Source: Sedimenticola sp. (GTDB lineage Bacteria; Pseudomonadota; Gammaproteobacteria; Chromatiales; Chromatiaceae). From it: a DNA stretch of 42,183 nt. The stretch is taken from assembly GCA_027083925.1 (NCBI GenBank), contig JALWMK010000112.1, forward strand, positions 1 to 42,183. Reading direction: 5' to 3'. A model generated the notes under the pieces. The model saw only the letters and a program-made list of their open reading frames with translations. It searched no databases and was not told the DNA's origin. This document shows positions 27,292 to 40,616 of this stretch, one piece after another. Positions within the stretch are counted from its first letter, which is position 1; each line of letters starts with the position of its first letter. Made by a program: the position numbers and the translations under genes.

Positions 27292-28017
27292 TTGCCCAAC
27301 GAACTTATGCCCGCCTATGTTCTGCATTCCCGAAAGTTTGGAGAGCGACATCTTTTGCTGGATATGCTCACGCTTTTTGCAGGTAGAATTCCCCTGATGG
27401 TACATGGGGGGGCATCTGCCAAAAGCACGCGGCGTGCGATGTTACAGCCTTTCAATCCCCTGTTGATTGCCTGGTCGGGACGAGGGAGGATTGCCAACCT
27501 AAAGCAGGTAGAGAGCCGTTCCGGCTATATCCTTCCCCGTGGCAAGGCGTTATTCAGCGGGTTTTATTTGAATGAATTGCTGATTCGGCTCATTGACCAG
27601 AATGAGCCTGTGCCGGAATTGTTTCTCTGCTATGAAAAAACTGTCGAGAGCCTGGGGGGCGGATCCGATCCTGATTTGCCGCTTCGTGATTTCGAACTGG
27701 AACTGCTGCAAACCCTCGGCTATGGTGTTGATTTACTGCATGAAGGCCGGTCTGGTGCGCCGGTCAGTGCAGGGTTCTGCTATAACTATGAGGCGGAAGC
27801 GGGACTGAAAAGAGTGCAGGCAGATGCTGGATTTCTGGCAAAGGGAGAGACACTGATCGCTTTGGCTCGACGCCAGGTGCTGGATCCGTGCCAGAATCGG
27901 GAGGCAAGGGAGCTGATGCGGCACATATTGGGTTTTTATCTGGGGGACAAGCCATTGAAAAGCCGGGAATTTTTTTACACACCAGGCCATTGTTCACCTG
28001 GAAAGACAAAAATGTGA
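27292..28017 (+). CDS. recO: DNA repair protein RecO
   Basis: RecO loads RecA onto SSB-coated DNA together with RecR. The 241-residue protein has the N-terminal OB-fold (about 1-80, with AYVLHSRKFGERHLLLDMLT and LQPFNPLLI) and a helical C-terminal part with LELLQTLGYGVDL. A TTG start at 27292 with AAAGGG upstream fits best; an ATG at 27307 is the alternative. The zinc cysteines of some RecO proteins are absent. Its stop codon lies in the loop of a perfect hairpin. Confidence 0.92.
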   Translation: MPNELMPAYVLHSRKFGERHLLLDMLTLFAGRIPLMVHGGASAKSTRRAMLQPFNPLLIAWSGRGRIANLKQVESRSGYILPRGKALFSGFYLNELLIRLIDQNEPVPELFLCYEKTVESLGGGSDPDLPLRDFELELLQTLGYGVDLLHEGRSGAPVSAGFCYNYEAEAGLKRVQADAGFLAKGETLIALARRQVLDPCQNREARELMRHILGFYLGDKPLKSREFFYTPGHCSPGKTKM

Positions 28018-28029
28018 TTTTGTCTTTCC
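28000..28029 (+). terminator. 12-bp perfect hairpin spanning the recO stop
   Basis: GGAAAGACAAAA (28000-28011) and its exact complement (28018-28029) flank the loop ATGTGA, which contains the recO stop codon. There is no T-tract directly after the stem, so it is not a typical intrinsic terminator. It may stall ribosomes or protect the 3' end. A second, weaker palindrome (TTTTCAAT 28034-28041 / ATTGAAAA 28055-28062) follows. Confidence 0.5.
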
Positions 28030-28104
28030 TCCATTTTCAATGGCTTATGTTTCTATTGAAAACGGCCCACGTTCTTGTGCGGCGTACAGGCTGTTAACCT
28101 GACA

Positions 28105-28124
28105 CCTGAACCCAAGGATTCAGG
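28105..28124. repeat. 20-bp near-palindromic element, copy 1, with flanking CTGACA repeats
   Basis: CCTGAACCCAAGGATTCAGG differs by one base from the sequence at 40261-40280. The six bases immediately before it (28099-28104) and after it (28125-28130) are both CTGACA. It lies between recO and pdxJ. It looks like a minute inserted repeat with a target-site duplication, but no mobilising protein is visible. Confidence 0.6.
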
Positions 28125-28156
28125 CTGACAACCAACTATACCGGAGGGCATTCATC

Positions 28157-39978: not shown

Positions 39979-40260
39979 ATGTCTAAATGTTTCCGTAAAT
40001 TATTTTTGTGAAGGCGCTCCGTCTGTTGGAATTCTATCAGGTATTTAAAAGCTCGCCATGACGGAAGTAATGAAAAAATTAAAGGTGCGGATGAGGGTTT
40101 GTTGGGAGCCAGCGAAGAACATGCTGTTGTTGCAGGTGCCGGTGAACTACTGATCGATGAGGCGCTGGACTTGCAGGTGATTTCCATTCGCCTGCGAAAA
40201 TCACTCATCTCTTCATGGGCTGGGTTATCAGCCACTGACGCAGTTCCGGCATGAGATCTT

Positions 40261-40280
40261 CCTGAACCCACGGATTCAGG
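40261..40280. repeat. 20-bp near-palindromic element, copy 2, with flanking ATCTT repeats
   Basis: CCTGAACCCACGGATTCAGG is 19/20 identical to 28105-28124. The five bases before it (40256-40260) and after it (40281-40285) are both ATCTT. It lies immediately downstream of the truncated response regulator reading frame. Confidence 0.6.
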
Positions 40281-40285
40281 ATCTT

Positions 40286-40324
40286 CTACAAGCATTTTTC
40301 ATCTTCCACCAGCAGCAGTCTCAT
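40286..40324 (-). pseudogene. Response regulator, N-terminal remnant
   Basis: A strong GGAGG ribosome-binding site on the minus strand precedes ATG (40324), and MRLLLVEDEK is the usual start of OmpR-type response regulators. After 12 codons the frame meets a stop, and the sequence continues into the 20-bp repeat and unrelated DNA. No receiver or DNA-binding remainder was found downstream. OmpR-type regulators often sit divergently beside heavy-metal RND efflux genes, as here. Confidence 0.65.
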
Positions 40325-40616
40325 GGGCTTCCTCCGTTTCAACCACCTCGGTAGTATGGATCTCCATGCAGCTTGTAAATTCTGCCTGCATTTCCAGCCC
40401 TGGAATACGTTCGCCTCCCTGCTTATAAGATACCCAATGATTTGATTTTGTTTGTGGTCAACATCGACTCGTCCCAAAGCACGGAGATGGAACCAGGCTG
40501 AATCTCCACAATATTCCCTTTCCTGTGCGTGGTTGAAGGCGATAGCAACCGAGCGGGATGTTCAGCTTTGTTTAAGGAAGCACCAGTATACTTGCCCGTC
40601 ACTTGGAGTCCCACGA

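Follow-up and report, generated by a model that had tools for sequence, protein, structure and literature searches.

How does a geneless 20-bp near-palindrome come to lie, twice in one contig, between direct repeats of two different sequences? This question is raised by a contig of 42,183 nucleotides (JALWMK010000112.1, here C112; the whole of it is the window of this study) from the Sedimenticola sp. assembly GCA_027083925.1, a genome of 2.58 Mb in 176 contigs (G000). We found that both copies are true insertions with target-site duplication (TSD), and we consider it probable that they are solo terminal repeats (solos) left after the collapse of a ~160-bp miniature inverted-repeat transposable element (MITE) of the IS1380 type. 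A first-pass annotation had placed the 20-mer at 28105-28124 and a copy with one mismatch at 40261-40280, with CTGACA and ATCTT, respectively, directly abutting each copy on both sides. These positions and flanks were confirmed in the sequence, and the features are as follows:

28099-28104, no strand: left TSD CTGACA of the first copy, read from the sequence; the relative G009 carries a single CTGATA and lacks the insert
28105-28124, forward strand: first stand-alone 20-bp near-palindromic end, CCTGAACCCAAGGATTCAGG, in the recO-pdxJ gap; site empty in G009
28125-28130, no strand: right TSD CTGACA of the first copy, from the sequence and the comparison with G009
40256-40260, no strand: left TSD ATCTT of the second copy, from the sequence; single ATCTT in G009 and G010
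40261-40280, forward strand: second stand-alone 20-bp end, CCTGAACCCACGGATTCAGG, equal to the genome-wide consensus, inside a response-regulator gene remnant; one mismatch from the first copy
40281-40285, no strand: right TSD ATCTT of the second copy, from the sequence; single ATCTT in G009 and G010

No further copies with up to three mismatches were found in the window, and shuffled sequences predicted 0.

The orthologous sites of relatives were found in their empty state. G009 shares 89% identity with G000 from recO to pdxJ, and about 96% over the initial stretch of pdxJ. At the first site it reads GTTAACCTGATAACC, with a single CTGATA and the 20-mer absent. The second site reads CGGCATGAGATCTTCTACAAG in G009 and CGGCGTAAGATCTTCTACAAG in G010, with one ATCTT in each. 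The first-pass annotation had taken the flanking repeats for TSDs, which would leave a single uninterrupted target at orthologous empty sites, and this is the state of both sites in G009 and of the second site in G010. It had also offered slippage as another origin, given the resemblance between the left CTGACA and the CCTGA end of the element. That explanation fails because G009 holds a single CTGATA without the 20-mer, and because G009 and G010 hold a single ATCTT. The difference to the empty site amounted to exactly 20+5 (or 6) bp for the copies at 28105 and 40261, and to exactly 20+5 bp for four more loci of the family (L009, L016, L017, and L064) and, in three relatives, for L013. The sites of L002, L019, L021, and L029 were empty in relatives too, with a less clean alignment. 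Sites of full MITEs in G000 (e.g., L010, L085, L087, and L105) were likewise empty in G009, with one target copy. Since solos and full MITEs are both missing there, both are recent insertions in the G000 lineage.

A search of both strands of the genome, allowing up to three mismatches, retrieved 158 copies of the 20-mer, whereas the reversed pattern used as a control retrieved 0. The genome-wide consensus is the sequence of the second window copy, and the AA-centred variant of the first copy is present only once. For the analysis of flanks, 116 distinct copies (up to four mismatches, as opposed to the 158 matches at up to three) were sorted into 64 stand-alone copies, 34 of them identical to the consensus, and 52 ends of a longer element. 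Exact flanking direct repeats were observed at 29 of the 64 solos (25 with 5 bp and 4 with 6 bp), compared to a mean of 1.6 and a maximum of 6 when right flanks were permuted among copies in 1000 runs. This fraction is conservative, because a few truncated MITE ends sit in the stand-alone set. Flank identity by position had a sharp maximum at register 5 (0.62-0.72), as opposed to about 0.2-0.4 at the other registers, and the duplications of solos are mainly AT-rich (TTCTA, TTTAT, TCTAT, AATAT, and ATCTT). Solos with perfect TSDs were also found in MITE-rich genomes of other lineages.

The longer element identifies the 20-mer, which in G000 is the near-palindromic terminal 20 bp of a ~160-bp MITE. 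Twenty complete copies were read in this genome, none of which contains a transposase gene. All but one measure 158-161 bp, and the remaining copy reaches 322 bp through a nested insert. Their usual ends are CCTGAATCCGTGGGTTCAGG on the left and CATGAACCCACGGATTCAGG on the right, which begin with CCTGAATCCGTG, differ from each other at five positions, and have no 20-mer in common. Exact 5-bp duplications border 13 of the 20 MITEs, within the 4-5 bp characteristic of IS1380-type MITEs, and a terminal repeat bordered by a duplication of this kind is what the 29 solos with exact repeats and both window sites present. As single-stranded DNA, the MITE was predicted to fold into one end-to-end hairpin of -51.2 kcal/mol (shuffles: mean -21.2, sd 2.4, z -12.4). 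A complete MITE comprises two terminal inverted repeats and an interior, whereas each window site has one near-palindrome, so neither is a complete MITE. The first-pass annotation had proposed a minute non-autonomous insertion; the insertion and its target duplication hold, whereas the 20-mer as a new mobile unit in itself is not supported, as it is a MITE end.

MITEs that match in length and build and have duplications occur in Candidatus Thiodiazotropha, Sedimenticola, Geothermobacter hydrogeniphilus, one Chromatiales metagenome-assembled genome (MAG), and the gammaproteobacterial MAGs HyVt-583 and Dive96_bin10.247. Single matches elsewhere (Paenibacillus, Mycobacterium, Reinekea, and others) have unrelated surroundings and are probably due to chance. 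Geothermobacter hydrogeniphilus, which carries the family at five loci (L227, L258, L274, L276, and L302), does not belong to the Gammaproteobacteria, a distribution suggesting that the element or its transposase has spread horizontally. A ~1.2-kb pair of ends in L302 was considered as an autonomous element and rejected, since it consists of one ~160-bp MITE and of a further end some distance away, and no transposase lies in between. The 322-bp MITE of G000 (L023, contig C70, 1199-1520) holds a nested ~160-bp repeat with the ends GGGCACCTCTATTAATT and AATTAATAGAGGTGCCC, apparently a different MITE family. Internally deleted forms of 58-107 bp are recurrent, many of them with duplications. Those of about 58-72 bp (L193 and L203, both in G003, as well as L264, L288, and L310; several with 5-bp duplications) approach the minimum size stated for bacterial transposons.

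The terminal repeats of the MITE are shared with an autonomous IS1380 element. In the genus mate G001, we identified a 1,659-bp element (L316) with the TSD TATAT and the ends CCTGAATCCGTGACTTC and GAAGTCACGGATTCAGG, whose 442-aa open reading frame matched NF033539.1 (transpos_IS1380) at 1.2e-97, passing the cut-off, and PF13701 at 2.4e-27. The outer 12 bp of the MITE ends are identical to both of its ends. In another IS1380-family element (L325; TSD TTCAA), one end is alike and the other has one mismatch. For comparison, ISEcp1 of the same family has the left inverted repeat CCTAGATTCTACGT and generates 5-bp repeats such as TCATA (PMC7864471). In G024 (L031, L044, and L053), a variant 20-mer, CCTAAACTCACGGATTCAGG, coincides exactly with the border of a multicopy element that lies close to contig ends. 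An IS66-like gene upstream of it in L031 was considered as the transposase family and set aside, as the limits of that element are not fixed and the IS1380 element L316 fits better.

How, then, would a ~160-bp element be reduced to 20 bp? We propose that a geneless ~160-bp element first integrates into an AT-rich target, of which it duplicates 5 bp (in some cases 6), like IS1380-family elements, a step documented by the insertions above. An IS1380 element would supply the transposase in trans. Slippage or deletion between the ends would later remove one end together with the interior, and its product would be a single 20-bp end between two target duplications. Because the terminal repeats are near-palindromic, each inverted end also repeats the other in direct orientation, and because the whole MITE folds into one hairpin, they meet in single-stranded DNA. 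Deletion between ends predicts that both TSDs are kept, that the outer terminus appears on both sides of the solo, and that symmetric hybrids occur occasionally. Both target repeats are indeed kept at solos. Two MITE end types (A and B) were compared in genomes outside G000, where the inner edge is TC for 17 of the 19 A ends, GA or CA for 17 of the 19 B ends, and CC for one of all 38. Among TSD-verified solos outside G000, however, 28 of 32 start with CC, i.e., the outer terminus on both sides. Judged by these letters, the solos combine the outer halves of both MITE ends, a combination found in neither end in those genomes. A B-end body with a CC terminus, CCTGAACTC, was found in L211 and L412, and symmetric T7/A14 hybrids such as CCTGAATCCACGGATTCAGG account for 6 of the 64 solos in G000. 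Finally, genomes of three Ca. Thiodiazotropha species (~90% identical) were compared at one locus. The element there measures 161 bp in L266 and 59 bp in L294, whose internal deletion falls on a TCA microhomology, while L269 retains the right end alone, which shows that this MITE family collapses in place there.

Several observations weigh against collapse to one end as the origin of the solos. The collapse at the Thiodiazotropha locus ended at 59 bp or lost the left end. Symmetric hybrids in G000 are scarcer than the approximately 39% that we estimate, from the places where its two ends diverge, for uniform crossover along the 20 bp, so junctions must favour the outer 4-6 bp blocks (CTGAA/TTCAG). 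In G006, no solo was found with the B-end body that some of the events should produce. An intact IS1380 transposase gene was absent from the G000 assembly in the PF13701 profile search made across the genus, which returned only a fragment; a multicopy insertion sequence (IS) may be absent from so fragmented an assembly. We hold collapse to be probable and stop short of greater confidence because no orthologous site was found that pairs a full MITE in one genome or strain with a bare 20-mer in another.

The alternative that survives best, although we judge it unlikely, is that the 20-bp palindrome is directly mobile, with an IS1380-type transposase reading its inverted 9-10 bp halves as both ends and producing the 5-bp duplications. 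Solos outnumber full MITEs in G000, and the identity of 34 of the 64 to the consensus would suit such a unit. Every solo site tested was empty in a relative and retained no remnant of a longer form, and misrecognised ends are known from the IS1380 family (PMC9330008, PMC7864471). The empty sites in G009, however, fit collapse after insertion equally well, because the intact MITEs of G000 are equally young. Moreover, solos outside G000 copy neither MITE end, so that one end jumping alone would be insufficient and the solos would need a lineage of their own. A length of 20 bp is also far below the minimum of 64-70 bp cited for bacterial cut-and-paste transposons (PMC3464196).

A lower probability still, and a small one, attaches to a footprint made by the transposase itself, in which the enzyme would cut one palindromic end at its inner edge and the other at its outer edge and so excise the interior together with one end, leaving 20 bp and the TSDs. 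A palindromic end does offer an end-like sequence on its inner side, and elements of the IS1380 family typically misrecognise ends (PMC9330008). A clean cut at the inner edge, however, would leave the wrong letters, since inner edges outside G000 read TC, GA, or CA while solos read CC, and the in-place collapse seen at one locus proceeded through a 3-bp microhomology inside the element, with no transposase needed.

The two remaining explanations are very improbable. A host regulatory or binding site spread by selection (an operator, terminator, REP-type or uptake sequence) would agree with a repeated near-palindrome that is depleted in long reading frames (38 of the 64 G000 solos lie inside, 52.9 expected), but its flanking repeats would have to be coincidental, whereas those at register 5 lie well above chance, orthologous sites lack both the insert and the second repeat, the copies are MITE ends, no T run follows the copy at 28105, and no Rfam match was obtained; a regulatory palindrome, repetitive extragenic palindromic (REP) sequence or terminator was rejected as the origin on the register-5 TSDs and the lack of an Rfam match, and single copies may still have been put to use by the host later. 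An assembly artefact, with 160-bp elements collapsed to short copies in short-read MAGs, might be suspected from the fragmentation of G000 and several relatives, whose contigs often stop near these elements; it was rejected, as solos are present in a single contig of 3.13 Mb (G006) and at the same sites in two separately assembled species (L385/L389 and L387/L401), and no assembly-graph shortcut is expected between the usual G000 MITE ends, which differ at five positions without a common 20-mer.

As for the surroundings of the two copies, the first lies 32 bp upstream of the pdxJ ATG, and its other neighbour is recO (RecO_N/RecO_C). Beside it, the window contains a degenerate part of a second dispersed repeat family at 27982-28095 (GGAAAGACAAAAATGTGATTTTGTCTTTCC...CCATTTTCAATG...GGCCGCAC...GTGCGGC), which is multi-hairpin and intergenic, with ~20 copies each in G006 and G009 and no Rfam match. 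The second copy is surrounded by the remnant of an OmpR-type response-regulator gene (MRLLLVEDE...; about 40190-40330, minus strand), which in G000 has a frame shift near its start, the 20-bp insert, and further stops, and whose reading frame is intact in G009 (L380). A 20-mer without flanking repeats was also observed at the same position of a conserved sequence in four species (L106 in G000, L214 in G009, L038 in G005, and L042 in G010), where it is an old insertion or else matches a gene sequence by chance.

If the collapse is as we propose, a solo end would be the counterpart, among bacterial DNA transposons, of a solo long terminal repeat (LTR), and palindromic ends would make an element prone to self-erasure. 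A 20-bp scar with its duplication can easily pass for a regulatory palindrome or for mere coincidence, and it lengthens the intergenic region or gene that holds it by 25-26 bp. In genomes now without a transposase, these scars are a record of earlier transposition, and the empty sites of relatives allow them to be dated. They also make testable the question of the shortest unit that an IS1380 transposase can move; if the 20-bp unit were directly mobile, it would be the smallest DNA transposon known. None of the open-licence papers searched was found to describe bacterial solo terminal repeats, and collapse to solo ends looks like a little-noticed decay route of bacterial mobile DNA, not a new kind of element.

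Among known systems, REP sequences and their associated tyrosine transposases (RAYT) are similar in that the repeats are short, dispersed, imperfect palindromes in intergenic DNA. REP sequences carry a GTAG motif and lack target duplications, whereas the 20-mer has no GTAG and has clear 5-bp duplications. The IS1380 family (e.g., ISEcp1 and ISPme1) shares ends starting with CCT and AT-rich 5-bp duplications, but the window feature is geneless and a single 20-bp end. The 160-bp parent resembles bacterial MITEs such as Correia/NEMIS, RUP, and YPAL, being short and geneless, with terminal inverted repeats, target duplications, a hairpin, many intergenic copies, and ends in common with an IS. Classical bacterial MITEs measure ~100 bp or more (e.g., 107, 155, and 168 bp; PMC2229807), whereas each window site has just a 20-bp end, for which the palindromic terminal repeats are the likely cause. 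Solo terminal inverted repeats (TIRs) in Paramecium have been proposed to originate, like solo LTRs, when short direct repeats inside palindromic TIRs recombine (PMC3464196). Those TIRs and the short internal eliminated sequences (IESs) are eukaryotic, of the Tc1/mariner type and subject to programmed excision, with a minimum of 26 bp, while the solos described here are bacterial, IS1380-type, and 20 bp long.

In the nearly precise excision of Tn10, the deletion runs from one short direct repeat to another close to the transposon ends, is helped by the inverted-repeat hairpin, and leaves a short palindromic remnant. The proposed collapse resembles this process (mentioned in PMC5991714 and PMC12524634) in its end-proximal direct-repeat deletion, the aid of a hairpin, and the palindromic remnant. 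On the one hand, the Tn10 events are rare and observed in the laboratory. On the other hand, the Sedimenticola genome holds scores of fixed natural remnants, for which the repeats would be the terminal repeats themselves.
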